Assembly: GCA_002425885.1 (NCBI GenBank)
Contig: DINC01000373.1
Coordinates: forward strand, 255-13,708
Source: Spirochaetia bacterium UBA5550
Lineage (GTDB): Bacteria; Spirochaetota; UBA4802; UBA5550
Direction: 5' to 3'
Length of the DNA stretch: 13,454 nt
Both the position numbers and the translations under genes were made by a program. How positions within the stretch are numbered: the stretch's first letter is position 1; each line of letters starts with the position of its first letter. The notes beneath the pieces are model-generated. The model was not told where the DNA came from, searched no databases, and saw nothing but the letters and a program-made list of their open reading frames with translations. Positions 1 to 13,454 of the stretch are shown here, in pieces.

Positions 1-33
1 TTGCCTGTTACAAAATAGAAATATAAAAAAATG

Positions 34-39
34 AAGGAG
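34..39 (+). promoter_or_regulatory. Ribosome binding site that decides the fdhA start
   Basis: AAGGAG stands 6 bases before ATG46. An upstream in-frame ATG at 31 overlaps this motif and has only an A-rich run before it (TATAAAAAA), so initiation at 46 is the better reading. Confidence 0.8.
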
Positions 40-45
40 CTTTTT

Positions 46-2748
46 ATGGACGTAATCCAACTCACGATTGATGGGGTGGCAGTTACGGGAAAAAAAGGTC
101 AGACTATTCTCGAAGTTGCTCTTGAGAATGGTTTTGATGTACCCTATCTCTGTTATCATCCCAGGATCAGCAAGACCGGTGCGTGCCGGCTCTGTATTGT
201 TCGTATAAACGATGTAATGATTAAAACGTCGTGTACTGAACCGGCTGTTGATGGAGCTAAGATTGTCACGGAAGATGATGAAATCAGAAGTCTGCGAAAG
301 GGCATACTTGAAATGCTCCTTGCGGAAGGTGATCACAACTGTCTTTACTGTGAAGCCAATGGTAACTGCGAACTTCAGAAACTCTGTTACCGTTATGGTG
401 TGGAAAATCCGGGACTCGATTTTCCGAAAAACAGAAGGCAGCGGGATGTTGTTTCAAGCCAGGGACTCAGGCGTGATGAGAACCGTTGTGTACTTTGCGG
501 CAGGTGCGTGAAAGCTTGCGCTGAGATACAGGTAAACAATGTATGGCAGTTTGACAACAGGGGTTCACACGCGTGCCTCACAGCTGATATGTTTGAAAAG
601 ATCGGGGATTCTTCCTGCGTACAGTGCGGTACATGCGTACAGCTCTGTCCCACGGGAGCTCTTTCATTCCAGACAGTCCTCGGGCGTGGTCCGGAATGGG
701 AACTCAAAAAGGAATCCAGTATATGTATATACTGCGGTGTTGGATGTAAGATAGATTTTTACACCAATGCCAAAGGTGAGCTTGTAAAAGCTATGGGTAA
801 TGTAGATGGCCCGAATAAAGGGCATCTCTGTGTTAAAGGGCGTTTCGGTTTTGATTTTGTTCAGAGTTCAAAACGTCTTACTAAGCCGCTCATCAGAAAG
901 AACGGCAAACTTGAAGAAGCTGAGTGGGGAGAAACTCTTGACTATGTTTCAAAAAGACTCTCTGAAATCAAAGAAAAATCAGGTCCGGATTCAATAATGG
1001 CATTCTCATCAGCAAAATGCACAAATGAAGAAAATTACCTGATGCAGAAAATGATGCGCGCGGTGATTGGCACCAACAATGTCGACCACTGCGCCCGGCT
1101 CTGACACAGCTCAACTGTCGCCGGTCTGGCGGCTACACTCGGTTCAGGTGCAATGACTAACTCAATCAGGGAAATTCCTCTGACAGAGTCATTTCTTATA
1201 ATAGGATCGAACACTACCGATAACCATCCGGTAATCGGCTCAATGATTAAAAATGAAGTAATCAATAAGGGCAAAAAGCTTGTTGTGGTAGACCCGAGAA
1301 AAATAGAACTGGCAAAATACGCTGATGTATACCTGCAGATTAAGCCGGGTACTAACGTTGCTATACTTAACGGGTTTATGCATGTAATTATCGGGGAGAA
1401 TCTCCTCGATAAAGAGTATGTCAGTACAAGATGCGAAGGCTATGATGAAATGGCAAAAGTTCTGGAGAAATATACTCCTGAACATGTTGCTAAGATCTGC
1501 GGTCTTGATGATCCGTCAAAGATTGTTGAAGCTGCACGGATTCTGGCACAAAGCAAGCCCATGGCTCTATACTATTGTATGGGTATCACACAGTTTAAAT
1601 CAGGTGTTAACGGCGTAAAAAGCTGCGCTAATTTACAGATGCTCCTCGGTAACCTCGGTATACCGGGCGGCGGCGTGAATCCGCTCCGCGGGCAGAACAA
1701 CGTACAGGGTGCCTGCGATATGGGTGCTCTTAATGCTGTTTATCCGGCGTATCAGCCTGTTACATCTGAAGATAACCAGAAGAAATTTAAAGAAGCATGG
1801 AAGACTCAGGTTGAACTTTCTGTCAAACCGGGTCTCACGATAGTCGAGTCTCTTAATGCTGCAATCGCGGGAGATGTTAAGGCTCTCTATGTATTCGGTG
1901 AAAACCCTGTAATGTCAGATCCTAACCAGCATCACGTAATTGAAGCTCTTGAACATGTGGATTTACTTGTTGTTCAGGATATAGTTCTCACAGAAACAGC
2001 TGAACTTGCGGATGTTGTTCTTCCCGGACGCGCATTTATAGAGAAAGAGGGGACAGCGAGCAACACTGAGCGCCGTGTTCAGATGATGCACAAAGTTGTT
2101 AAACCTGCCGGAGAGAGCCAGGATGACTGGTGGATCCTTATGCAGATTGCCAACCGTATGGGTGCAAACTGGGATTACACATGCGCGAAGGATATATTTG
2201 AAGAAATAAGAAAAGTTACACCATCGTACGCAGGTATAACTTACGAAAGGCTTGAGAAGGAGCTTATCCAGTGGCCATGTCCCACAGAGGGGCATCCGGG
2301 TACACAGTACCTCCACAAGGATAAATTCAACAGGGGCCTTGGACTTATGTCCGCAATAGAGTTCACACCTCCTGCAGAGGATGTTGATCTTGAGTATCCG
2401 ATGATCCTGACAACAGGAAGGGTACTCCAACATTTTCATACAGGCACAATGAGCCGTAATTCAAAAATTCTGGATGAAATCTGTCCTGAAGGTTTTATAG
2501 AACTTCACCCCATGGACGCGAGCAACTATAATGTTTCTGATGGAGAGGTCGTTTCCATCTCAACAAGAAGGGGCAGCATCAGGATGAAAGCAAGGGTAAC
2601 TGACAAGCCGAAACCTAATGTCGTGTTTATGCCTTTCCATTTTGTGGAAGCAGCAGCTAACAAGCTGACCATTGACGCCCTGGATCCTACATGTAAGATC
2701 CCGGAATTCAAGGTATGCGCCTGTAAAATTGAGAAAGTGAATGCGTAG
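46..2748 (+). CDS. fdhA: Selenocysteine-containing NAD-linked formate dehydrogenase, catalytic (alpha) subunit
   Basis: Oxidises formate to CO2 (or the reverse) at a molybdopterin centre in the cytoplasm; no Tat or Sec signal is visible. The frame passes through TGA at 1102-1104, in the context CARL-U-HSSTVAGL, the formate dehydrogenase active-site motif, so TGA encodes Sec353 of a 900-residue protein. Order of domains: NuoG-like [2Fe-2S] (C36, C47, C50, C63); His-Cys [4Fe-4S] (H97, C99, C102, C108); two ferredoxin clusters (C148/151/154/158 and C191/194/197/201); the [4Fe-4S] of the molybdopterin domain (C227, C230, C234, C262); then the catalytic domain and a C-terminal dinucleotide-binding domain. 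ATG46 is preferred over in-frame ATG31 because AAGGAG lies 6 bases before ATG46. The layout resembles FdsA/FdhA of soluble NAD-dependent enzymes, and the NuoE-NuoF fusion gene follows after 10 bases. The alternative of a broken gene is rejected (Sec context plus SECIS). Confidence 0.95.
1102..1104 (+). other. UGA recoded as selenocysteine (Sec353 of FdhA)
   Basis: The in-frame TGA follows codons for DHCARL and is followed by HSSTVAGL. Formate dehydrogenases have Sec or Cys at exactly this place, where it ligates the Mo/W. The reading frame continues without another stop to 2748, and a SECIS hairpin begins 12 bases after the TGA. Confidence 0.96.
1117..1133 (+). promoter_or_regulatory. Bacterial SECIS element (SelB-binding hairpin) inside fdhA
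   Basis: The bases GUCGCC (1117-1122) pair with GGCGGC (1128-1133), giving six pairs including one U-G, around the loop GGUCU. The loop starts 18 bases after the UGA. As I recall E. coli fdhF, this is the same loop sequence and the same spacing. The element is within the coding sequence, as is usual in bacteria, and would recruit SelB with Sec-tRNA. Confidence 0.9.
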
Positions 2749-2758
2749 GGGGCGGATA

Positions 2759-4591
2759 ATGAATACAACAGCGATTACGAAAACAATAGATAAATACGGT
2801 AATGACAGGGAGCACCTGATGCTCATCCTGCGTGACCTTGAAGCACAGTCAGGTAAGAATGTGCTTGATGCAGATACACTGACAGAAGTTGCAGAGCAGA
2901 TGAATATACCAAAGAGTGCTTTGGCCGGATTCCTCGGTTTTTACACGATGTTTAAGAAGAATCCCAGAGCTAAGTATCTTATAAGGGTCTGTAAATCAGG
3001 CCCCTGCCATGTAATGGGTTCAAGGACAATCTTTGATGAAGTTGAAGATATCCTGGGAATCAAACCTGGCGAAGCAACAAAGGACGGCATGTTTTTCCTT
3101 GAAAGATGCGAGTGTCTCGGTGTATGTTCAGTAGCTCCTGCTATGATGGTTAACTATGATATTCATGGCAACCTGACAAAAGAGAGCCTGAAGAAGATAT
3201 TTGATGACTACAGAAAGAAAGAACCTGAATTCGGTGAAGAGTGCGGCCCGGAAGTTGAGGAGAAAGCATGTATTCTTTCAAACGATGGACAGACAAAAAG
3301 ACTCCTTGCTGATATAGGTAAAATTGATCCTCTTAGTCTCGACAGCTATCTCCAGTCAGGCGGTTACAAGGCTGCGGAGAAAGCAATGAAAGGGCTTCAG
3401 CCTGCTGATATCATTGACATAGTCAAAGATTCAGGCCTCAGAGGTAGAGGGGGCGCGGGTTTTCCGGCTGGTATGAAGTGGTCTTTTGTTACTAAAGGTG
3501 ATATGCAGAAGTATGTTATCTGTAATGCTGACGAAGGTGAGCCTGGAACATATAAGGATAGAATTCTTATGGAAGGGAATCCTCATCTCCTTATAGAAGG
3601 TATGATGATCTGCGGTTTTACAATTAAGGCAACAGAGGGTTATATCTATGTGAGAGGTGAATTCAGAAGGTCAATTATGCGTCTTCAGAAGGCAATTGAT
3701 CAGGCTCGCGCAAAAGGTATCCTTGGAAAGAATATATTCGGAAGCGGTTTCGACTTCGATGTATTCATTAAAGAGGGTGGCGGAGCTTATGTCTGCGGTG
3801 AGGAGACATCTCTCATCAACTCTATGGAAGGGAAGAGGGGTTATCCCAGATTCAAACCGCCGTTCCCCGGTGGTTCAGGATTCAATAATCTCCCTTCAAA
3901 CGTAAACAACGTTGAGACATATATGTCTGTGCCTATGATCATAGATAAAGGTGCAGCATGGTACAAAGAGATGGGCCCGTCATATTGTACAGGAACCAAA
4001 CTCTATTGTCTTTCAGGCAAACTAAATGAAACCGGACTTGTTGAGCTCCCCATGGGAACAACCATGCGTGAACTTATAGACAAGTACGGAAAAGGTATTA
4101 AAGGCGGAAAGAAATTCAAGTTTGCCCATGTGGGCGGTTCAGCAGGCGGAATACTTGGCGAAGACCTTATGGATCTTCCTCTGGATATCGACTCAACAAC
4201 CAAAGCCGGTGTAACTCTAGGTTCCGGTGTTGTGATGATTGCTGACGAGGATACATGCCCTGTTGACTACATGCTTCAGATACTCGATTTCTTTGAGCAT
4301 GAATCATGCGGCCAGTGTGTACCATGTAGGGTCGGTACAAGCCATCTTAATTATTACGCGAAGAAGTTCGCCTCAAGAACAGCAAAGATTGAAGATATTG
4401 ATGCAATGGTTGCAAAAGCACAGTTAATGAAGAGTGCATCTCTCTGTGCGTTGGGACAGTCTCCTATACTCCCTATAACAACTATGCTGAAATATTTCAG
4501 AAAGGATTTTGAGAAGCATTGTGATCCGTCATACAAATGTCCTGAGTGCGACAGGTCGCTTAAAACTTTTTTTAGCGCGAAAGGTCACTAA
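2759..4591 (+). CDS. nuoEF: NuoE-NuoF fusion: NAD(H)/FMN diaphorase subunit of the formate dehydrogenase
   Basis: Passes electrons between FdhA iron-sulfur centres and NAD(H). In this 610-residue protein the N-terminal ~160 residues are a NuoE-like thioredoxin-fold [2Fe-2S] domain with the expected C78-x4-C83 and C119-x3-C123. The remainder is NuoF-like: the glycine-rich RGRGGAGF (228-235) and NADEGEPG (256-263) of the FMN/NAD site, GGGAYVCGEETSL further on, and a [4Fe-4S] site at C517, C520, C523 and C563. The start ATG2759 follows a GGGGGCGG stretch; an upstream in-frame ATG at 2741 overlaps the end of fdhA and lacks a ribosome site. It lies 10 bases after fdhA, so one operon. The C-terminus ends with C588, C594 and C597, as though a HydB-type ferredoxin tail were absent. 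FdsG and FdsB, or HydC and HydB, are the separate-gene counterparts. Confidence 0.92.
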   Translation: MNTTAITKTIDKYGNDREHLMLILRDLEAQSGKNVLDADTLTEVAEQMNIPKSALAGFLGFYTMFKKNPRAKYLIRVCKSGPCHVMGSRTIFDEVEDILGIKPGEATKDGMFFLERCECLGVCSVAPAMMVNYDIHGNLTKESLKKIFDDYRKKEPEFGEECGPEVEEKACILSNDGQTKRLLADIGKIDPLSLDSYLQSGGYKAAEKAMKGLQPADIIDIVKDSGLRGRGGAGFPAGMKWSFVTKGDMQKYVICNADEGEPGTYKDRILMEGNPHLLIEGMMICGFTIKATEGYIYVRGEFRRSIMRLQKAIDQARAKGILGKNIFGSGFDFDVFIKEGGGAYVCGEETSLINSMEGKRGYPRFKPPFPGGSGFNNLPSNVNNVETYMSVPMIIDKGAAWYKEMGPSYCTGTKLYCLSGKLNETGLVELPMGTTMRELIDKYGKGIKGGKKFKFAHVGGSAGGILGEDLMDLPLDIDSTTKAGVTLGSGVVMIADEDTCPVDYMLQILDFFEHESCGQCVPCRVGTSHLNYYAKKFASRTAKIEDIDAMVAKAQLMKSASLCALGQSPILPITTMLKYFRKDFEKHCDPSYKCPECDRSLKTFFSAKGH

Positions 4592-4665: not shown

Positions 4666-5985
4666 ATGAGTAACGCAAATCTCGACTCAAAACGATGGAT
4701 AATAGCAATCGCCGGTACATGTCTTCAGATATGTCTCGGAACTGCTTATGCCTGGTCTTTCTTTCAGAAGCCCCTGAGTACAGCATTCGGCTGGTCACAG
4801 AGTATGACAGCATGGGCATTCTGTCTCGCTATCTGCTTTCTCGGTATATCCGCAGCTGTAGGCGGAATCCTTATGCCTAAAGTGGGCCCCAGGAAAATGG
4901 CTATGATCGGAGGACTTCTTTTCGGTCTTGGTTACATTTTAGCATCATTTGCTCTTAAAGCGCAAAGCCCGGCTCTCCTTTTCCTTACCTATGGTGTAAT
5001 AGGCGGCTGCGGTCTTGGTACAGGTTATGTAACCCCTGTTTCTACTGTTGCTAAATGGTTCCCTGACAAGAAGGGTTTTGCCACAGGTATGGTTGTTATG
5101 GGTTTCGGTCTTGGCGCTCTCTTTATGTCAAAGATTTTCGCACCTATGCTTATGAACGCATTTGCATTCAGCCCGGCCCTTGATCAGGCTGCACAGCAGG
5201 CTATACTTGTAAAAGTATTCCTTTATCTCGGGTTTATTTTCCTTGTGCTTACAATCCCTATCGGCTCATTAATTACTCCTCCGCCGGCAGGATATGTTCC
5301 AACAGGATATAATCCTCCTGCAGCAACAGCAGCATCTTCAGCTCTGGATAACCTCCCTGCAAAAGATGCAATCCTCACAGGAAGATTCGCGATTATCTGG
5401 GTCATATTTTTCTGCAACATTACAGCAGGTATAGGTATCATCGGATTCCAGTCTCCGCTCTTCCAGGATCTCTGGGCAAAAGCTAACAGTGTTGATATGA
5501 CACAGGCTGCAAATGTAGCATTACTTGCCGGTTATGGCGGTACTCTTATTGCTGTTACATCTATCTTCAATGGTCTTGGACGTTTCTTCTGGGGCGGATT
5601 ATCAGATAAGATTGGCCGTGTTCAGACATTCAGAATCATGCTCGGGACACAGGTTCTCTGCTTTATCGCTCTTGTTTATAATTCTAACCCATGGGTTTTC
5701 GCGTTAATATTCTGCTATGTTCTCCTCTGCTACGGCGGCGGTTTCGGAACTATGCCGGCTTTCATACTCGATGTATTCGGTGCTAAAACACACGCCATCG
5801 TTTATGGAACAGTTCTTACAGCATGGTCAGCAGCAGGTATAGTTGGTCCTCAGATGGTTGGTATGCTTAAGGATAATTTAGGGGCAGATGCAGCATTCTA
5901 CACATTCTGGTGTGGAGCTGGTATACTTGCATTCGGTTTCCTTGTAACACTTCTTGGAAGCAACGAACCGTATGAAAAGAAATAG
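4666..5985 (+). CDS. OFA-family MFS transporter, probable formate (or related monocarboxylate) carrier
   Basis: A 439-residue, very hydrophobic protein with about 12 predicted membrane segments in two halves, which is the major facilitator fold. The N-terminus (RWIIAIAGTCLQICLGTAYAW, shared start of the oxalate:formate antiporter family) and the segments GCGLGTGYVTPVSTVAKWFPDKKG and GLSDKIGR are characteristic of this family. GGAGG at 4652-4656 stands 9 bases before the ATG. Its place after a formate dehydrogenase argues for formate uptake or export, but family members also carry oxalate, pyruvate and other acids. OxlT requires a Lys in TM11; the corresponding region here (about 376-398, including LTAWSAAG) has none, which argues against dicarboxylate oxalate exchange. 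The substrate is inferred, not shown. The gene is followed by a terminator and seems to close the first transcription unit. Confidence 0.85.
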   Translation: MSNANLDSKRWIIAIAGTCLQICLGTAYAWSFFQKPLSTAFGWSQSMTAWAFCLAICFLGISAAVGGILMPKVGPRKMAMIGGLLFGLGYILASFALKAQSPALLFLTYGVIGGCGLGTGYVTPVSTVAKWFPDKKGFATGMVVMGFGLGALFMSKIFAPMLMNAFAFSPALDQAAQQAILVKVFLYLGFIFLVLTIPIGSLITPPPAGYVPTGYNPPAATAASSALDNLPAKDAILTGRFAIIWVIFFCNITAGIGIIGFQSPLFQDLWAKANSVDMTQAANVALLAGYGGTLIAVTSIFNGLGRFFWGGLSDKIGRVQTFRIMLGTQVLCFIALVYNSNPWVFALIFCYVLLCYGGGFGTMPAFILDVFGAKTHAIVYGTVLTAWSAAGIVGPQMVGMLKDNLGADAAFYTFWCGAGILAFGFLVTLLGSNEPYEKK

Positions 5986-6011: not shown

Positions 6012-6034
6012 GGTATTACTCTGAATTACACTGT

Positions 6035-6066
6035 CCCCGTCTGATATCAGGCGGGGATTTGTTTTT
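6035..6066 (+). terminator. Rho-independent terminator of the fdhA-nuoEF-transporter unit
   Basis: CCCCGTCTG (6035-6043) pairs with CAGGCGGGG (6048-6056) through nine pairs, one of them U-G, around the loop ATAT. It is followed by ATTTGTTTTT. The GC-rich base plus T-rich tail is the intrinsic terminator pattern, and it lies about 50 bases after the transporter stop. Confidence 0.88.
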
Positions 6067-6142: not shown

Positions 6143-6171
6143 TTGACAAACTCGTCCTGAGAGACTATAAA
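6143..6171 (+). promoter_or_regulatory. Sigma70-type promoter of the hyf-like operon
   Basis: A perfect -35 box TTGACA (6143-6148) and a -10 box TATAAA (6166-6171) are separated by the ideal 17 bases. The DNA upstream (about 6106-6142) is AT-rich, including a run of eight T, and could act as an UP element. Transcription would start near 6178, leaving a leader of roughly 65 bases before ATG6245. Confidence 0.85.
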
Positions 6172-6218: not shown

Positions 6219-6232
6219 AAATATTGAAGGGC

Positions 6233-6244: not shown

Positions 6245-8269
6245 ATGGGTCTTATCGCACTATCATTTTTAATTTCCCTGTGCGGGATTATACTCATTCC
6301 TCTTTTTCCGGTTAAGCTGAAAAAGATAACCGCTGTCATAGTAGTGCTGTCCTCCGGCGCGATTCATGTTTTCAATGCGGTTAAAGTACTCTCCGGCGGA
6401 ATAATCAATTTCACTTTAAATGCAGGTTTCCCGTTTGGAGATTTACCCGTACGGATAGACAATCTTTCTGCTTTTTTCATCATAGTGATCACATTCACGT
6501 TGTCAACCGGTGTTATATACGGCTATCATTATATGTCTCAGTATGATGATGAACCTGAGAAGCAGTCACTGCATTGGTGTTCTTTCCTGCTTCTTCAGTC
6601 CGGGATGATGGGTGTCTGCATGATGCAGAATATCCTGGCTTTCCTCATGTCATGGGAGGTCATGACTGTATCAGCATTCATTCTTGTTATATATGATTAT
6701 GAAACACCGAATACTATACGTGCAGGATTGAACTATTTTGTGCAGTCTCATATAGGCGTACTTCTTATTATTACAGGTTTTATATGGACAGCATCAGCAG
6801 CAGGTTCGTTTGATCTGGCTGTGATTATATCAGCAGCAAAAAATAACACCATTCACCTCGGCACATGGCCATTCATGGTCCTTTTTATCGGATTTGCTTT
6901 CAAGGCGGGTTTAGTCCCTCTTCATACATGGCTCCCCTGGGCTCACCCGGCCGCGCCATCACACGTTTCCGGTATAATGTCAGGTGTTATTATCAAGATG
7001 GGTATTTATGGAATCTTCAGAATTCTCCCGGTTTACCAGGGTGATATGCTGCAGATTGGAAGGCTTATACTCCTCATATCTGCAGCAACTGCATTATACG
7101 GAGTTATGGTTGCCATAATTCAGCACAATCTCAAGAGGCTACTTGCATATCATAGCGTTGAGAATATCGGTATTATCGGGATGGGTATAGGCCTCGGTGC
7201 AATCGGGACTGGTATGGGGAATAATACGGTTGCTTTCGTCGGATATTGCGGTGCGCTCCTGCATACACTTAATCACTCGCTATTTAAATCTCTCCTTTTC
7301 TTTACAGCAGGGTCGGTCTACAGGAAAGCTCATACTCTGAATATTGAGGAACTTGGAGGGCTTGCAAAAAAGATGCCCTATACCGCTGCGCTTTTTCTAA
7401 TCGCTGCACTTGCAATTACAGGGCTCCCTCCATTCAATGGTTTTATATCAGAATTTCTTATTTACAGTTCAATGTACACCGGGATGACTTCAGGTAATCT
7501 CTCCTTTTCAATGATCTTTCTCTGCTGTATATTCGCCCTTGTTATGGTGGGCGGCCTTGCTTTTCTCTGTTTCACTAAAGCATTCGGTATTGTTTTCCTC
7601 GGGAGTCCAAGGCACCATATACCTGAAGACTGCGGCGAGGTTGAGAGATGGTGCCTTGTGCCTCAGTTCGTTATACTTGCCATGATTCTTTTAATAGGAT
7701 TTTTCCCGCTGCCTTTTATTAAGCTGGTAAGCAAGCCCGCGCTTACGCTTATACCGGGAATACAGAATCCGGCTGAAATACTTGCCCCGGTGAACAGCAC
7801 AATGCTGTCAATATCAACCGGTGCAATTCTTATCGCAGTAATATGCGGTGCCGTATATGGTGTGAAGATTTTGGTTACCAGAAAAGCCATTGATAGAACA
7901 TCACCTACATGGGGATGCGCCTACACCGGCGCCAGTCCTAAGCTTCAGTATACAGCTACATCTTTTATAAAGAGCTATACTGTAATTGCATCTCCTCTTC
8001 TGAGGATAAAAACTACTGCGTCAGCAATTGAAGGGCTTTTTCCCGAGAAGGGTGAGTTTCACATCAGGACGTATGATAAGCTGGAAGAGAAGCTCATAGA
8101 CAGTAATCTCAACAGGGTCGGGAACTTTATGACGCTTTTCGCTTTTTTACAGAACGGGCTTATCCAGTACTATATACTTTACGGCGTGTTTTTTATAATC
8201 GCTGTAATGGGTTTTACTTTCAGAAAATCCATAATCAGTTTTATAATCTCCTTCCTGGCGCTGGGGTAA
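6245..8269 (+). CDS. hyfB: HyfB/HycC-like membrane subunit (NuoL-type proton-translocating antiporter homologue)
   Basis: A 674-residue polytopic inner-membrane protein, close to the usual length of HyfB. It belongs to the NuoL/M/N-Mrp antiporter family, whose half-channels move H+ or Na+. Residues of the ion path are visible: E138 in the SWEVMT segment, K220 in FKAGLVPLHTWLPWAHPAAPSH, K297 in HNLKRLLAYHS, and H344 and K348 in LNHSLFKSLLFF. The motif GLPPFNGFISEF is also present. The C-terminus holds the HyfB-type TWGCAY...QYTATSF stretch, a soluble segment and a final membrane helix. ATG6245 follows GGTGAT by 6 bases. It is the first gene of the second unit, with its own promoter, and the stop is 1 base before hyfC. 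Membrane-arm function looks intact; the symbol marks homology only, as the complex is not a hydrogenase. Confidence 0.9.
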   Translation: MGLIALSFLISLCGIILIPLFPVKLKKITAVIVVLSSGAIHVFNAVKVLSGGIINFTLNAGFPFGDLPVRIDNLSAFFIIVITFTLSTGVIYGYHYMSQYDDEPEKQSLHWCSFLLLQSGMMGVCMMQNILAFLMSWEVMTVSAFILVIYDYETPNTIRAGLNYFVQSHIGVLLIITGFIWTASAAGSFDLAVIISAAKNNTIHLGTWPFMVLFIGFAFKAGLVPLHTWLPWAHPAAPSHVSGIMSGVIIKMGIYGIFRILPVYQGDMLQIGRLILLISAATALYGVMVAIIQHNLKRLLAYHSVENIGIIGMGIGLGAIGTGMGNNTVAFVGYCGALLHTLNHSLFKSLLFFTAGSVYRKAHTLNIEELGGLAKKMPYTAALFLIAALAITGLPPFNGFISEFLIYSSMYTGMTSGNLSFSMIFLCCIFALVMVGGLAFLCFTKAFGIVFLGSPRHHIPEDCGEVERWCLVPQFVILAMILLIGFFPLPFIKLVSKPALTLIPGIQNPAEILAPVNSTMLSISTGAILIAVICGAVYGVKILVTRKAIDRTSPTWGCAYTGASPKLQYTATSFIKSYTVIASPLLRIKTTASAIEGLFPEKGEFHIRTYDKLEEKLIDSNLNRVGNFMTLFAFLQNGLIQYYILYGVFFIIAVMGFTFRKSIISFIISFLALG

Positions 8270-8270
8270 T

Positions 8271-9203
8271 ATGGAATCAATAATTTTAATTATAACAGCA
8301 AGTTTATTTTTTACAGGTATAGTTATACGAGTTAAAAGTATGGCTTCCGGAAGAAAAGGCCCGGGAATACTGCAGCCGCTCCGTGATATAGCAAGGAATA
8401 TGAAGAAGGGCGGGGTCTACAGTGAAACATCAGGTATTATTTTTAAAATAGCCCCGTCAATCTACACCGGTACCCTTATTACGGCTTCCTTGTGCATACC
8501 TCTTGGTGACAGGCCTGGAATACTTTCATTTCAGTGGGATTTTGTATTCTTCGTTTACACACTTGCACTTGGTAAATTCCTTATGGTAATAGCTGCACTG
8601 GATACCGGCAGCAGCTTTGAGGGTATGGGAGCAAGCCGTGAAGCTTTCTTCTCGATGCTTATGGAACCTGCGATGTTCATGGTTATGGGTTCTTTTGCCA
8701 TCTTAACCGGGAAGACTTCTTTTTCCGGTATATTTGCCGCACTTCATGGCACAGGAATATCAAATGCTGTCAGTTATACCATGGCCGCACTTTCTGCAAT
8801 AATCATTATGCTTGTGGGGATGGTTGAAAACAGCAGGATGCCCGTGGATGATCCCAAAACTCATCTTGAGCTTACTATGATCCATGAAGTGATGATCCTT
8901 GACAACAGCGGATTTGACCTCGGGCTTATAATGTATTCATCATGCCTTAAATTCGCTGTGTTCGGAGCTGTTGCTGCGGGGCTCTTTATGAAACCGGGGG
9001 CAGGCTTTTTTGCTGATGCGGGAATATTTTTTCTTGTACAGCTCTGTTATGCAGTATTCACAGGTTTTATGGAATCATTTATGGCCCGGTTCAGGATGAG
9101 AAACAATCCCCAGTTTATATATACTATTACTGCTGCAACACTTCTGATCTTTATCGGCGCAGTGCATGCAAGTGGTATAGCGGGGGGTAAAATGCCGTGG
9201 TAA
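8271..9203 (+). CDS. hyfC: HyfC/HycD-like membrane subunit (NuoH homologue)
   Basis: A 310-residue membrane protein, the usual size for HyfC/HycD. In complex I and group 4 hydrogenases, this subunit anchors the peripheral arm to the membrane arm and lines the entry to the coupling channel. Family motifs are clear: LGKFLMVIAALDTGSSFEGMG with the following SREA, and NSRMPVDDPKTHLELTMIHE, which carries the conserved acidic residues of the cytoplasmic loop. The start lies 1 base past the hyfB stop and follows GGGG, so it is probably translated by coupling. Its end overlaps the next gene by 7 bases. No unusual loss of motif residues is seen, in contrast with the peripheral subunits of the same operon. 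Confidence 0.9.
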   Translation: MESIILIITASLFFTGIVIRVKSMASGRKGPGILQPLRDIARNMKKGGVYSETSGIIFKIAPSIYTGTLITASLCIPLGDRPGILSFQWDFVFFVYTLALGKFLMVIAALDTGSSFEGMGASREAFFSMLMEPAMFMVMGSFAILTGKTSFSGIFAALHGTGISNAVSYTMAALSAIIIMLVGMVENSRMPVDDPKTHLELTMIHEVMILDNSGFDLGLIMYSSCLKFAVFGAVAAGLFMKPGAGFFADAGIFFLVQLCYAVFTGFMESFMARFRMRNNPQFIYTITAATLLIFIGAVHASGIAGGKMPW

Positions 9204-9826
9204 ACCTGATTCTTTTATCTTTTCTCGCAACACTATTCTTTATAATCACGGCATGGCGGCTTGTAACTTATCTTCAGATACTTGCGCTTCAGGGGATTCT
9301 TCTTTTTGCGGCTGCATTCTTTTCTCTTTCATCAATGCATACCGCTAACCTTGCATTTATTCTTCTTGAAACAGTTGTGGTAAAAACTGTGGCTATCCCT
9401 TTTTTTGTAGGATATATATTAAAAAGAAATAATATAACAAGGGAGGCAGAACCTCTTGTCCCTGTTTTTATCTCTCTTGTTCTCATGGTAAGCGCTGTGA
9501 TATTGATCTTCTTCCTCTCCTATGCGTCAGGGTTCAGTATCTTCGACAATCTTTTTTTTGTAGTGTCACTGGCCACTGTGTTTACTGGTTTATACATAAT
9601 CATGACCAGGAGAAAGATTATTACACACATGATGGGGTACCTGGTAATTGAAAACGGAGTATTTATCCTCTCTCTCGCTGTCGGTAATGAGATGCCCATG
9701 ATGGTTAACATGGGTATACTTCTCGACGTTTTTGCCAGCGTACTGACTTTAGGAATTTTCCTTAATAAAATCGGTGATGTTTTCAAGGATGGGGACGTCA
9801 CGCAGCTCAGGAGCCTGAAGGATTGA
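9197..9826 (+). CDS. hyfE: HyfE-like membrane subunit (NuoK-related)
   Basis: A 209-residue hydrophobic protein with six or so predicted membrane segments, the size of HyfE. HyfE-type proteins carry a NuoK-like region and are found only with HyfB/HyfF-type antiporter subunits. A Glu lies in the segment FILLETVVVKT (about residues 54-64), and another in YLVIENGVFIL (about 148-158), matching the buried acidic residues of NuoK-like helices. The start is GTG, 7 bases inside the end of hyfC, with GGGGGG (9182-9187) placed 9 bases before it; no ATG fits. The next gene begins 4 bases after its stop. Identification rests on these motifs, length and place in the operon. Confidence 0.82.
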   Translation: MVNLILLSFLATLFFIITAWRLVTYLQILALQGILLFAAAFFSLSSMHTANLAFILLETVVVKTVAIPFFVGYILKRNNITREAEPLVPVFISLVLMVSAVILIFFLSYASGFSIFDNLFFVVSLATVFTGLYIIMTRRKIITHMMGYLVIENGVFILSLAVGNEMPMMVNMGILLDVFASVLTLGIFLNKIGDVFKDGDVTQLRSLKD

Positions 9827-9830
9827 AATT

Positions 9831-11258
9831 ATGTACAGTATATTTTTTATAACATCATTTCTTATAGGCGGGGCGCTTCTCTTTAACAGGAATAATATTC
9901 TGAAAGTACTCCTCCTTGTATCTTTTATAATACTGCAGGGGAGCTTCGTATTTTTTGTTGTAAAAAATACCGGGAGCAGTTTCGGGTACCTCACTGCTGA
10001 CCATCTTGCAGTTATCTTTATAGTTGTTCTTTTTATTATATCATCCCTTTCGATATATCACAGTGCTGCGTATCTGAAATGGCAGCAGAAGAATGAGAGA
10101 GAGCATAACTTCTATTATGCGGCAATGGTAATACTTGTTGCCGCCCTTAATTGCGCCTACTGTGCCAATCATATAGCAATAACATGGATGTTCGTTGAGA
10201 TTACAACAATTGCGGCATCCTTCCTTATCTATTACCGCCGGACAGAGCTCACACTTGAAGCTACCTGGAAATATATATTTGTCTGCACAATAAGCATCAC
10301 CTTTGTTTTTATTGGTATATTATTCCTCGGTATATCTATGAAGCATGCCGGACTCACGGAGATGACCTATACATCGCTCATGGCTAATGCTTATCTCCTG
10401 AATCCTTTCTGGACAAAGATGGCGTTCATTTTTATCTTCACAGGATTTACAGCAAAAGCAGCTCTTTTCCCTATGTATACAGCGGGGATTGATGCTAAAG
10501 ATAAAGCCCCTTCACCTGCCGGCGCGATATTTGCCAGCGGTCTGATGAATGTGGGCTTCTGCGGTATCTTCCGGACTTATTGTATTGTTCAGCTTACCGA
10601 TTCCGCTGCATGGTCGAAATCGGTCCTTCTTATCAGTGCTACAATATCAATTTTCCTTGCTTCAGTATATATAATGAAAGTTGCCAATTATAAAAGGATG
10701 CTTGCCTATTCAAGTATAGAGCACATGGGGCTTGTAATGCTGGGCCTCTCAATGGGTGGAGCCGGGGTGTTCGCCGCGATTTTTCATCTCCTGCTGCACT
10801 CTTTTATCAAACCCGCCCTGTTTTATCAGACTGGTATAGCATACAGGGTTTTCGGCAGCAAAATGATTGAAGAAACCGGGGGCTACTTCAGACAGAGCGT
10901 GGCAGGTTCTCTTGTCTTTATCCTGGGTTATTTCTGTGTGACGGCAGTTCCACCGTCAGGATTATTTATCAGTGAATTCATGATATTCCGGGAGATGTAT
11001 CTTAAAGGCTATCTCTGGCTTATGGCAATAATAATGATGCTCCTTACTGTAATTATCTGGGCGCTTGGAAGAAATATATTCAGACTGGTTTTTACTGCTC
11101 CGCCAAATGTTAAATTTGAATCACTGGAGCGGCCAAGTCCCCTGGAATCGCTTTCCCAGATAGCCCTGATTCTGTTTGTTATGTTCATGGGGATTTTTCC
11201 TCCGGAACCAATACTAGATTATATCCGCGCAGCAGCGGCTATAGTGTCTTCACGGTAA
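9831..11258 (+). CDS. hyfF: HyfF-like membrane subunit (NuoN/NuoM-type antiporter homologue)
   Basis: A 475-residue polytopic protein of the proton-translocating antiporter family, a little shorter than E. coli HyfF. Ion-path residues are visible: E123 in MFVEITTIAAS, K209 in FTAKAALFP, K288 in NYKRMLAYSSIEH, and H323 and K327 in LLLHSFIKPALF. The PSGLFISEF motif is present near residue 380. With HyfB it makes two antiporter-type subunits; a HyfD homologue, the third in E. coli hydrogenase 4, is absent. AAGGA lies 8 bases before the ATG, which is 4 bases past the hyfE stop. HyfF instead of HyfD is favoured by length and order in the operon, but the two are paralogues. Confidence 0.85.
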   Translation: MYSIFFITSFLIGGALLFNRNNILKVLLLVSFIILQGSFVFFVVKNTGSSFGYLTADHLAVIFIVVLFIISSLSIYHSAAYLKWQQKNEREHNFYYAAMVILVAALNCAYCANHIAITWMFVEITTIAASFLIYYRRTELTLEATWKYIFVCTISITFVFIGILFLGISMKHAGLTEMTYTSLMANAYLLNPFWTKMAFIFIFTGFTAKAALFPMYTAGIDAKDKAPSPAGAIFASGLMNVGFCGIFRTYCIVQLTDSAAWSKSVLLISATISIFLASVYIMKVANYKRMLAYSSIEHMGLVMLGLSMGGAGVFAAIFHLLLHSFIKPALFYQTGIAYRVFGSKMIEETGGYFRQSVAGSLVFILGYFCVTAVPPSGLFISEFMIFREMYLKGYLWLMAIIMMLLTVIIWALGRNIFRLVFTAPPNVKFESLERPSPLESLSQIALILFVMFMGIFPPEPILDYIRAAAAIVSSR

Positions 11259-11271
11259 TGGAGGAGCCGCT

Positions 11272-12783
11272 ATGACTGATAAAATAAAAGACATCGTGAG
11301 AATAAAAAACTGTGAAACAGTAAAGCTCGATAGAATACCGATCCTGCAATATGCTGATTTTATTGAACTTAACAGTTCTCTCGTAAAAGACGGCATGAGG
11401 CATTTATCACATTACTTCGCTGCACCGGCAGGTAAAAATCTGCGGATTATTTCTATTGTCGCGGATGATGCGGCAGGGGACATTATATGTTCTTCATCAC
11501 TTGTGCCAAATGACAGGCCTCTCTCTTCAGCAACGGCACTTCACCAGTCGTTTCATCCGTTTGAAAGAGACATACATGAAAAATACGGTCTACATTATAC
11601 AGACCATCCTTGGCTGAAACCGCTGCGATTTCCTGCCGGAATAAAACATCCGAAAGATATGACAGAATACCCTTTTTATTCTTATGAAGGAGAAGACCTT
11701 CATGAAGTAGGAGTAGGTCCGATCCATGCCGGTGTAATTGAACCTGGTCATTTCAGGTTTATCTGTAACGGTGAAAAGGTTCTTCATCTTGAGATACAGT
11801 TAGGCTATCAGCACCGCGGAGTTGAAGAACTGTTTATTAAAAAGAAAAGTCTTCTGGAGAGGGTAATACTTTCGGAATCAATTGCAGGGGATACAACTAA
11901 CGGCAATGCAGCAGCTTTCTCGCAATTGTACGAATCTTTATGCGGATTCAGGCCGGGAGAGCATCTATCTTTTGTGAGGACTCTGGCTCTTGAACTGGAG
12001 AGAATGGCTATCCATACAGGTGACCTGTCTGCCCTTGCCGGTGATGTTGCGTATCAGCTGGGGAATGCTGTTTTCGGAAGGCTCAGAACTCCCATAATTA
12101 ACTATACACAATCCTGGGGAGGTAACAGGCTGGGGCGCGGCCTTATCCGGCCTGGAAGGACAAACTTCCCGTACACATCTGAACTTGCTGAGTCTCTGGT
12201 GAAAATTTTTAATGAATATGAACCGCATTATACTGAAATGGCGGATACTCTATTTGCCCGTCCCAGTGTACAGGCAAGGTTTGAAAAAACAGGAATTCTC
12301 TCTAAAGAGGATATTCTGGCAATGGGTACAGTGGGTACTCCTGCGCGTTCAACAGGTGTTAAACGGGATATCCGTTCAACTCATCCTCATGGTTATTATT
12401 TATCTTTTAAACATGAACCTGTCCTTCTGCCGCAGGGTGATGTATATGCCCGGGCATATATACGAGACAGGGAGATCCGTCAGTCTATGTCATTGATTAG
12501 AAAGATGATAACCGCAATACCTGCTGTAGATAAAAATGTTGATCTCAGTGAAAAAAAATGCGCATCAGAATCTTTATCTGTTTCACTTGTTGAAGGGTGG
12601 AGAGGTGAAATCTGTCATGCCGCAATTACTGATAAAAACGGAAATATTGCTTTATATAAGATTAAAGATCCCTCTATGCATAACTGGTTTGCCCTTGCAA
12701 TGGCTGTCCGTGGTGAAGAGATCTCCGATTTTCCTCTCTGCAATAAAAGCTTTAATCTTTCATATTGCGGACACGATTTGTGA
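11272..12783 (+). CDS. hyfG: HyfG-like large subunit (NuoC-NuoD fusion) lacking all Ni-Fe ligands
   Basis: A 503-residue soluble subunit of the peripheral arm. Residues ~1-120 are a NuoC/30-kDa-like domain with the motif HPFERDIHEKYGLHYTDHPWLKPLR. Residues ~150-503 are a NuoD/[NiFe] large-subunit domain with GPIHAGVIEPGHFRF and EIQLGYQHRGVEELF. In hydrogenases the next motif is CGIC; here it aligns with A205-G-D-T208. The C-terminal DPCxxC aligns with N495-L-S-Y-C-G500, and the protein ends at L503, so there is no cleavable tail. All four Ni ligands are therefore missing and it cannot be a [NiFe] hydrogenase. E. coli HyfG and HycE are longer, near 570. This pattern matches the Ehr class (complex I/hydrogenase-related). 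GGAGGAG precedes ATG11272 by 5 bases, 13 bases after hyfF. Symbol reflects homology only. Confidence 0.85.
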   Translation: MTDKIKDIVRIKNCETVKLDRIPILQYADFIELNSSLVKDGMRHLSHYFAAPAGKNLRIISIVADDAAGDIICSSSLVPNDRPLSSATALHQSFHPFERDIHEKYGLHYTDHPWLKPLRFPAGIKHPKDMTEYPFYSYEGEDLHEVGVGPIHAGVIEPGHFRFICNGEKVLHLEIQLGYQHRGVEELFIKKKSLLERVILSESIAGDTTNGNAAAFSQLYESLCGFRPGEHLSFVRTLALELERMAIHTGDLSALAGDVAYQLGNAVFGRLRTPIINYTQSWGGNRLGRGLIRPGRTNFPYTSELAESLVKIFNEYEPHYTEMADTLFARPSVQARFEKTGILSKEDILAMGTVGTPARSTGVKRDIRSTHPHGYYLSFKHEPVLLPQGDVYARAYIRDREIRQSMSLIRKMITAIPAVDKNVDLSEKKCASESLSVSLVEGWRGEICHAAITDKNGNIALYKIKDPSMHNWFALAMAVRGEEISDFPLCNKSFNLSYCGHDL

Positions 12784-12791
12784 GGTAGATG

Positions 12792-13454
12792 ATGTTCAGA
12801 TCGCTTTCAATAGTTTATCACAATGGCAGACAGTTTATTCCCGATATACGGGGCACAAAGCTTGCTCCTCCATTCAGAGGACTCCCCTTAATACGAAGAG
12901 TCAAAGCTGACGATAAAAAGATTGCGGCATTCTGCCCTGCGGGCGCAATCGGTACTGCACCGCTTTCTATAGACCTCGGTAAATGCGTTTTCTGTGGTGA
13001 GTGTGCATTCGCTTTCCCTGAAAAGATATCTTTTACATCAGATCACATAATCTCTACGAATATCCGTGAACGGCTCATCGTAAAAGAAGGTGATGAACTT
13101 CCCATTAGAACAGACCGTGATGCAGTAAGGAAAGAGATAAAAAGAATATGCGGCCGCTCGCTGAAACTTCGCGAAATCTCTGCAGCAGGTGATAACAGCG
13201 CGGAGTGGGAGATGACTGCATCAGGTAATGTTCAGTTCGACATGAGCCGCTTCGGAATTGAGTTTGTAGCATCACCGAAACACGCTGACGGAATTCTGAT
13301 AACAGGGCCAATTTCAGAGAATATGGCACGGGCAGTAGAAATTTGCTATGAAGCTGCCGCAGACCCGCAGATTATAATACTCGCGGGCACTGACGCCATA
13401 AGCGGCGGGATTTTCAAGGAAAGCAGCGCGCTTCAGAGAGATTTCCTCGCAAAT
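12792..13454 (+). CDS. HyfH-HyfI-like fusion (ferredoxin domain + NuoB-like small subunit), partial at 3' end
   Basis: The frame is open from ATG12792 to the window edge (221 codons, no stop), so the gene is incomplete here. Of two adjacent ATGs, 12792 is preferred because GAGGT (12782-12786) is 5 bases before it. Residues ~25-82 are a degenerate 2[4Fe-4S] ferredoxin: motif II keeps C65, C68 and C71, and motif I keeps only C48 of the CP; K38, D41, I44 and F75 replace the other four ligands. One cluster is thus intact and one lost. Residues ~121-221 match NuoB/HyfI: MSRFGIEFVASPKHADGILITGPI and AGTDAISGGIFKES. The cluster motif CxxCE is replaced by D134-N-S-A137-E, and GDCA by G-T-D201-A, so three proximal-cluster ligands are absent. 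The fourth would lie past the edge. It starts 8 bases after hyfG. The fusion replaces separate hyfH and hyfI genes. Confidence 0.82.
   Translation, partial: MFRSLSIVYHNGRQFIPDIRGTKLAPPFRGLPLIRRVKADDKKIAAFCPAGAIGTAPLSIDLGKCVFCGECAFAFPEKISFTSDHIISTNIRERLIVKEGDELPIRTDRDAVRKEIKRICGRSLKLREISAAGDNSAEWEMTASGNVQFDMSRFGIEFVASPKHADGILITGPISENMARAVEICYEAAADPQIIILAGTDAISGGIFKESSALQRDFLAN

Follow-up and report, generated by a model that had tools for sequence, protein, structure and literature searches.

An Ehr-class spirochaete operon with a conserved ion path and few remaining electron-transfer sites

Energy-converting-hydrogenase-related (Ehr) complexes are relatives of hydrogenases and complex I, and their founding comparative paper is reportedly that of Marreiros and co-workers. 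In hydrogenases and complex I, electrons run from ferredoxin-type clusters to the N2 cluster and on to the active site. Complex I, MBS and Mbx are likewise non-hydrogenase relatives with an antiporter arm, and MBS and Mbx keep N2 as the last electron carrier. So does complex I (PMC8042128). Ehr complexes (EhrA/C/L/S) have been described in Geobacter (GSU0739-0745), the Nitrospirales, and comammox Nitrospira (PMC6349859, PMC10284858, PMC12342949, PMC7894505). They lack nickel ligands, and their function is given as unknown (PMC10284858, PMC12342949). HydDB leaves them out of the hydrogenases (PMC5037454). They are widespread, and about half of the Nitrospirales genomes analysed in one study carry them (PMC12342949). 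In the portions available, these descriptions mention missing nickel ligands only (PMC6349859, PMC10284858, PMC12342949, PMC7894505). Here we analyse a six-gene Ehr-class operon, hyfB-C-E-F-G-(H/I fusion), of Spirochaetia bacterium UBA5550. The window, meaning the whole stretch of DNA analysed (13,454 nucleotides), covers bases 255-13708 of contig C312 in an assembly of 4.1 Mb and 393 contigs that is 84% complete.

An earlier note on the window had likened these genes to the Ehr class, and a large subunit without nickel motifs, encoded with antiporter-like membrane subunits, bears the likeness out. What is shared is a membrane arm, HyfG and HyfI homologues without nickel ligands, and a function that published accounts leave unsettled. 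The window form differs from the described complexes in three ways: it has also lost the N2-type site, it has lost one ferredoxin cluster, and it fuses HyfH with HyfI. We read it, at close to even chances, as a redox-cut, ion-translocating Ehr complex in which ions would be coupled to a non-redox event of the peripheral arm, with CO2/HCO3- as the best-guess molecule and the one remaining [4Fe-4S] site in a structural or sensor role. The literature searched, in its available portions, mentions neither N2 loss in Ehr nor a bicarbonate link; N2 loss may already be in print.

Metal sites, ion path, and selection

Aligned with the intact enzymes of the same genome, HyfG reads SIAGDT for RICGIC and NLSYCG for DPCYSC, and the four nickel-ligand cysteines are replaced by A205, T208, S497, and G500. 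Two hallmarks of group 4 [NiFe] hydrogenases are absent: the four cysteine nickel ligands (CGxC, DPCxxC) and the C-terminal extension removed by a protease. The missing motifs rule out a misread nickel enzyme. HyfG stops at the position that corresponds to the Arg of DPCYSCSER, which we take to be the cleavage site of the maturation protease in group-4 precursors; the gene would thus encode a ready-made C-terminus. In HyfH/I, the four cysteines of the N2-type (proximal) site are replaced by D135, A138, D202, and N, the first three read in the window and the fourth beyond an assembly gap. The ligands of the outer ferredoxin cluster (N6a type) are all lost (K39, D42, I45, F76). Four cysteines are intact (C49, C66, C69, C72), which by complex I numbering are presumably the ligands of the inner, N6b-type cluster. 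Since all ligands of the nickel, N2, and outer-cluster sites are gone, whole clusters have been removed, not single ligands. The earlier note had listed the nickel site, the proximal cluster, and one ferredoxin cluster as missing, and residue alignment confirms this list.

HyfH and HyfI form a single fused protein, which the window edge cuts after residue 222. An NN assembly gap (C312:13709-13710, equivalent to L007:13709-13710) lies inside the gene, and the reading frames on its two sides do not match; past the gap, codons for IPGNPPHP are legible by eye. The nearest named relative, Spirochaetia bacterium UBA5763 (locus L024; HyfG identity 86%), has an uninterrupted gene of 250 aa, and its sequence represents the window in the HyfH/I alignments because the window copy is cut. 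HyfA and HyfD are both absent from the operon, a correction to the earlier note. For hyfB, the gene call places the start at a TTG at 6224; we adopted the ATG at 6245. Scanned against Rfam at gathering scores, the window gave no match.

The AlphaFold2 model of HyfG (mean pLDDT 89.7; last five residues below 50) is closest to Escherichia coli HycE (7z0s_E; TM 0.85 by query length), and the HyfH/I model from L024 (pLDDT 93.3) has a small-subunit fold resembling 6u8y_J and NuoB. As modelled, both proteins have the folds of the corresponding hydrogenase and complex I subunits. No molecule named Ehr occurs among the PDB sequence matches, where the nearest are MBH (6cfw) and formate hydrogenlyase (FHL; 7z0s). 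Group 4a FHL and hydrogenase 4 (E. coli HycE, 7z0s; the genome's own enzyme on contig C186) share subunit order and folds with the window complex; unlike them, it lacks nickel ligands, the N2 cluster, HyfA, and HyfD. Subunit identity to the genome's own FHL is 24-35%, and the N2 ligands of complex I (NuoB/NuoD) are likewise absent.

The membrane arm presents the opposite picture, as the earlier note had proposed in setting retained ion-path parts against lost redox sites. Its Glu, Lys, and His residues of ion translocation are near-invariant: HyfB E138, K220, H340, K348, and E403 are kept in 74-75 of 75 aligned sequences, HyfF E123, K209, K327, and E382 in 75-76 of 76, and HyfE E152 and D177 in 74-75 of 75 (these counts, and that for HyfC, include the window sequence). 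The same HyfB, HyfF, and HyfE residues are present in the genome's own nickel enzyme. The claim that HyfC keeps its acidic loop holds for the acids, with E186, D193, D194, E200, and E206 found in 67/67 sequences, but not for the loop as a whole, which is rewritten relative to the FHL enzyme (D194, H198, H205, D211).

The operon is conserved under purifying selection. Ratios of nonsynonymous to synonymous substitution rates (dN/dS) against L024 are 0.043 for hyfB, 0.036 for hyfC, 0.012 for hyfE, 0.025 for hyfF, 0.094 for hyfG, and 0.030 for hyfH/I (221 codons), rough figures given a dS of 0.5-1.3. The loss of catalytic ligands could in principle mark the decaying remnants of a hydrogenase-4 operon, and the earlier note had named such decay as the outcome that would undo its reading. 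We consider it extremely improbable: dN/dS of 0.012-0.094 rules out a decayed operon, every frame is open across the window genes, and identical losses are conserved over the 119 Ehr rows of our tree. Intact HyfG, HyfH, and HyfI supplied from downstream, the other outcome so named, are also ruled out, since the remaining 1.5 kb of the contig hold no further hyf gene and a response regulator on the opposite strand comes next.

Elsewhere in the genome, CGIC and DPCxSC are both present in two group-4 hydrogenase operons (open reading frames read by eye): the FHL-type operon on contig C186 and another on C235, each with its own membrane subunits. Within the second (L008:4000-6018), a molybdopterin FDH-like protein seems, by eye, to lack the active-site Cys/Sec; it reads NNITLDSESGHKASL where NNVDHCARL-Sec-HSS is expected. 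In L024, a gene set just after the Ehr operon (L024:13949-18507) resembles an NAD-linked (HoxEFUYH-like) NiFe hydrogenase operon.

Table 1. Features of the window (positions count from its first letter)
Feature	Coordinates (strand)	Length	Description
Formate dehydrogenase	31..2748 (+)		NuoG-like N-terminus; neighbour, probably not a subunit
NuoE-NuoF fusion	2741..4591 (+)		Neighbour
MFS transporter	4666..5985 (+)		Lactate / oxalate-formate type; neighbour
Hairpin	6033..6058 (+)		Terminator-like; in L024 too, with one stem G-T pair replaced by A-T
Promoter-like site	6143..6171 (+)		TTGACA-17-TATAAA ahead of hyfB; conserved in L024
hyfB	6245..8269 (+)	674 aa	HyfB-like antiporter subunit; Pfam Proton_antipo_M 7e-54
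hyfC	8271..9203 (+)	310 aa	HyfC/NuoH-like subunit, Ehr-type acidic loop; Pfam NADHdh 4e-32
hyfE	9197..9826 (+)	209 aa	HyfE/NuoK-like; NCBIfam hydrogenase 4 membrane subunit 3e-15 (below cut-off)
hyfF	9831..11258 (+)	475 aa	HyfF-like antiporter subunit; Pfam Proton_antipo_M 9e-40
hyfG	11272..12783 (+)		30 kDa + 49 kDa type, without Ni ligands; end ...NLSYCGHDL
hyfH/I	12789..13454 (+), extends past window		HyfH-HyfI fusion; one ferredoxin-type [4Fe-4S] site left

Ehr relatives and the state of N2

Relatives were drawn from 80 loci of named genomes, 30 short loci of limited use, and 40 longer regions from the window's phylum and that of the L070 genome (Microscillaceae, so Bacteroidota). A third sample added 40 regions from the phylum of the L045 genome, probably Planctomycetota, as the tandem Ehr of L045 is closest to L046 (Scalindua) and L086 (Brocadiaceae). 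At E 1e-20, the window's phylum gave matches in 97 of 296 genomes; nickel enzymes and complex I are necessarily among them, most weaker matches spanning the NuoB-like part only. The second sample yielded 15 of 395 genomes at 1e-50 and the third 49 of 392 at 1e-45, with a nickel motif in 8 of the HyfG fetched from the third. Duplicates were dropped: L120, L121, L136, and L137 from the nickel-motif and neighbour counts; L121, L136, and L137 from the HyfH/I alignment and the tree; and L121, L134, L136, and L137 from the neighbour listing. The plasmid loci L160-L163 belong to the sets of 161 and 119 proteins described below and lie outside the 115 loci used for neighbours.

Both nickel motifs are absent from 153 of 161 HyfG-like proteins of at least 250 aa, as judged by pattern matches to R/K-x-C-G-x-C and DPCxxC, not ligand by ligand; for the first motif, the alignment variants viewed were the 40 commonest. 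Our counts use "Ehr" for HyfG-like proteins without these motifs, and nickel loss is therefore part of the definition. A C-terminal S-aromatic-x-G followed by few residues is found in 150 of the 153. With the third sample excluded, the N2 cysteine set is missing from 72/119 HyfH/I-like proteins, with mostly D-C-D-N (48) or D-A-D-N (12) in its place. The inner-cluster cysteines are kept in all 113 proteins whose ferredoxin domain is in the alignment; the other six lack the domain. The earlier note had asked whether the pattern of lost cysteines is conserved, and it recurs over many relatives. Its wider claim of redox loss becomes sharper: all sampled Ehr are without nickel, but the N2 part of the claim fails for the 47 of 119 HyfH/I-like proteins that keep the full set.

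A tree of 121 HyfG rows, rooted on two nickel enzymes, separates these from the 119 nickel-less rows at SH-aLRT 100, with only two outgroup rows and a long-branch warning; it is a quick build from a set that includes no named reference Ehr sequence. N2-intact Ehr branch first. N2-less Ehr, including the window, form a nested group of 80 rows, which also holds five N2-intact rows (L061, L067, L072, L075, L077), and the N2 state changes at least three times on the tree. In our reading, the loss of nickel preceded that of N2, an order that depends on the rooting, the change count being directionless. Tandem pairs of Ehr operons occur in L045, L046, L086, and L160, and two Ehr sets also in L028 and L032. 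In the L045, L046, and L086 tandems, one operon has a fused H/I and the other an unfused small subunit with its N2 cysteines intact.

The formate dehydrogenase next door

The genes upstream of hyfB raise an alternative, in which formate electrons from the neighbouring formate dehydrogenase (FDH) enter an ion-pumping Ehr arm via the remaining cluster and pass to a quinone or other acceptor. This FDH has an in-frame TGA at 1102-1104 (codon 358), and the motif DHCARL-TGA-HSSTVAGL marks a selenocysteine at the usual Sec/Cys site. An FDH-Ehr complex has been proposed for other lineages (PMC6349859), and Geobacter has higher levels of Ehr subunits on formate (PMC7894505). The FDH-NuoEF-MFS set adjoins Ehr in the window and in L024, NuoF-MFS lies near Ehr in L062, and genes labelled by BLAST as NuoEF or FDH-N-like occur within ~10 kb in L032, L143, and L158. 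Set against this proximity are the loss of N2, which would connect the kept cluster with the cavity, and the absence of the electron-entry subunit HyfA. Moreover, NAD suffices as acceptor, since the FDH comes with a NuoEF module of its own. A second MFS gene, 83% identical to this one, lies close to the genome's FHL operon, as would fit a self-contained formate-handling set. For the quinone pathway, the 84%-complete genome gave one MqnA/D-type match (G000) and MenD matches below cut-off.

The intergenic stretch adds to these objections. A hairpin scan found 1 hairpin against a mean of 0.2 in shuffled sequence, and a promoter-like site follows it; this TTGACA-17-TATAAA goes unlisted by the automated promoter scan, whose rule demands a final T. 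Both elements recur in L024, though the surrounding stretch is 72% identical (275/382 columns). This conserved pair, lying between FDH-MFS and hyfB, parts the two gene sets; it counters a joint FDH-Ehr transcript as the default and weakens the case for an FDH-Ehr complex here. In L134, a locus of the same genus, an ABC_trans_CmpB protein and one protein without a Pfam match are encoded in the 3.3 kb fetched upstream of Ehr, which contain no FDH, NuoEF, or MFS. The complex of PMC6349859 is possible, with weak support in the window, and we judge transfer of formate electrons into this Ehr arm to be unlikely.

Possible functions of a redox-cut complex

With N2 and the nickel site both gone, the kept cluster would have no partner in range, and the usual drive of the ion path would be impossible. 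The complex-I-type membrane arm would still conduct H+ or Na+, while electrons would no longer reach the old catalytic cavity. In place of H2 or quinone chemistry, a non-redox event of the peripheral arm may then be coupled to ion flow; this event could be gating by a partner or a small-molecule reaction in the former Ni/N2 cavity, and the remaining [4Fe-4S] site could be structural or a redox sensor. The earlier note had offered a partner-gated channel or antiporter, a small-molecule reaction in the old cavity, and a single-cluster redox pump; in the window the last is the least likely of these, as electrons have no relay left between the kept cluster and the cavity.

CO2/HCO3- is our best guess for the cavity molecule, by analogy with DAB2 (DabA2-DabB2). 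Like the cyanobacterial NDH-1 CO2-hydrating complexes, DAB2 also combines a NuoL-type membrane subunit with a cytoplasmic arm, and its authors propose CO2 hydration driven by proton force without electron transfer (PMC13144422). This non-redox precedent, together with the cut relay, leads us to prefer an ion-coupled non-redox role. The window complex differs from DAB2 in lacking the DabA/beta-carbonic-anhydrase fold and in its hydrogenase-derived peripheral arm, and the two functions are likened by analogy only; no DabA (DUF2309) family was matched when the ten window proteins were compared with Pfam.

Gene neighbourhoods offer further leads. The six hyf genes stand together in most loci, with no constant electron-input partner. 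A SulP, SbtA, or Chr transporter is among the two nearest open reading frames on either side, on either strand, in 17 of 115 loci (a count that omits the BLAST-seen Chr genes of L079 and L080). About 0.2 would be expected, an estimate based on 34 genes in 20 genomes, with Chr counted once per genome and 3,400 genes per genome assumed; half or more of those genomes were chosen for having such a transporter beside Ehr. These genes and EIIA were located by BLAST from nine representative queries, a search that may overlook distant relatives. Several draft genomes yielded no copy other than that next to Ehr (SbtA in G297; Chr in G300 and G700; SulP in G383, G336, and G698). Near Ehr, L031 has SulP followed by a beta-carbonic anhydrase, and L030 has a phosphoenolpyruvate carboxylase. 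Among solved structures, the SulP of L077 best matches 6ki1, which we take to be the cyanobacterial bicarbonate carrier BicA; for the SulP of L127, the best match is not 6ki1. The transporter loci comprise 7 N2-less and 10 N2-intact members (L081 is off the tree), so the transporter link does not track the redox sites. HCO3- transport has been reported for carriers of all three families (PMC10880623), though the SulP and Chr families also contain carriers of other anions. In L013 (12264-12803) and L015 (2424-2969), a short membrane-type protein overlaps the end of the Ehr operon; it has weak BLAST similarity to the L058 SulP, and the L013 copy lacks a convincing Pfam match.

Several observations weigh against a non-redox, ion-coupled role and against CO2/HCO3- as its molecule. 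Since 47 HyfH/I-like proteins keep the N2 cysteines, some members of the class may still do redox work. Most loci (98/115) have no SulP/SbtA/Chr neighbour; those that do occupy only some five to seven places on the tree, and the three families were pooled only after being seen. Such a neighbour occurs in 0/26 Ehr loci of the third phylum, and the nickel-motif locus L198 also has a SulP neighbour. The window itself has an FDH and no bicarbonate carrier next door. The DabB of DAB2 is without the ion-pair motifs that true pumps have (PMC13144422), which makes the analogy loose; any carbonic-anhydrase-like metal site would be putative, and the CO2 role stays a best guess by analogy. Higher Ehr abundance on formate in Geobacter also fits a redox reading (PMC7894505).

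Third-sample neighbours were surveyed more broadly. Twenty-nine proteins were scanned (24 of the 43 listed plus five from L171, L174, L193, L196, and L201, several belonging to nickel-motif loci); none of the 25 families inspected, out of 30 in all, is CO2-related. The 19 unscanned were 14 BLAST-labelled EIIA and 5 others. From the neighbour listing, 66 of 67 downstream genes (L162:12486-12809 omitted) and 85 of 85 upstream genes were analysed. SulP-like genes also lie near nickel-motif group-4 operons of the third sample (L198:2294-4015, L202:15711-16201).

A different neighbour splits the Ehr class in two. A gene of ~224 aa combining HTH_17 and PTS EIIA_2 adjoins 27 of 40 N2-intact loci and 0 of 66 N2-less loci (9 of the 115 have no HyfH/I state or a mixed one), as well as 14 of the 26 third-sample Ehr loci, where N2 state was unscored. 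It lies directly upstream of N2-intact operons in L122 (2457-3131), L139 (2817-3524), and others. This regulatory-type gene upstream of many relatives, the intact membrane arm, and the single cluster whose cysteines persist in all 113 ferredoxin domains would suit a pure ion channel or Mrp-type Na+/H+ antiporter, its peripheral arm a lid or scaffold opened by a partner or by cluster state. However, a mere lid hardly explains the HyfG tail kept in 150/153, and no EIIA was found beside the 66 N2-less loci; we regard a pure channel or antiporter as rather unlikely.

We place an ion-coupled, non-redox role with CO2/HCO3- as its leading candidate first, the gated antiporter next, and the FDH-Ehr complex third. 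All three can be squared with the Geobacter data: Ehr is more abundant on formate than in hydrogen-containing conditions, and elsewhere abundant on formate and hydrogen (PMC7894505), and its proteins are also higher in syntrophic coculture (PMC8691401). A bolder proposal, more doubtful than any of the three, casts Ehr, and its N2-less branch in particular, as a third kind of complex-I-derived inorganic-carbon machine, in which an ion gradient would drive CO2 hydration, bicarbonate uptake, or CO2/formate balance through a hydrogenase-derived arm that has shed electron transfer.

The conservation of the stripped form in many bacteria means that it probably has a different job. Nickel enzymes, nickel-less Ehr, and Ehr without nickel and N2 form a natural series in which the ion path is kept throughout, and this series lets one ask how a complex I membrane arm runs without quinone or hydrogen chemistry. 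The patterns of EIIA, beside N2-intact operons and no sampled N2-less one, and of SulP/SbtA/Chr, in several clades, are concrete leads to the function of Ehr.

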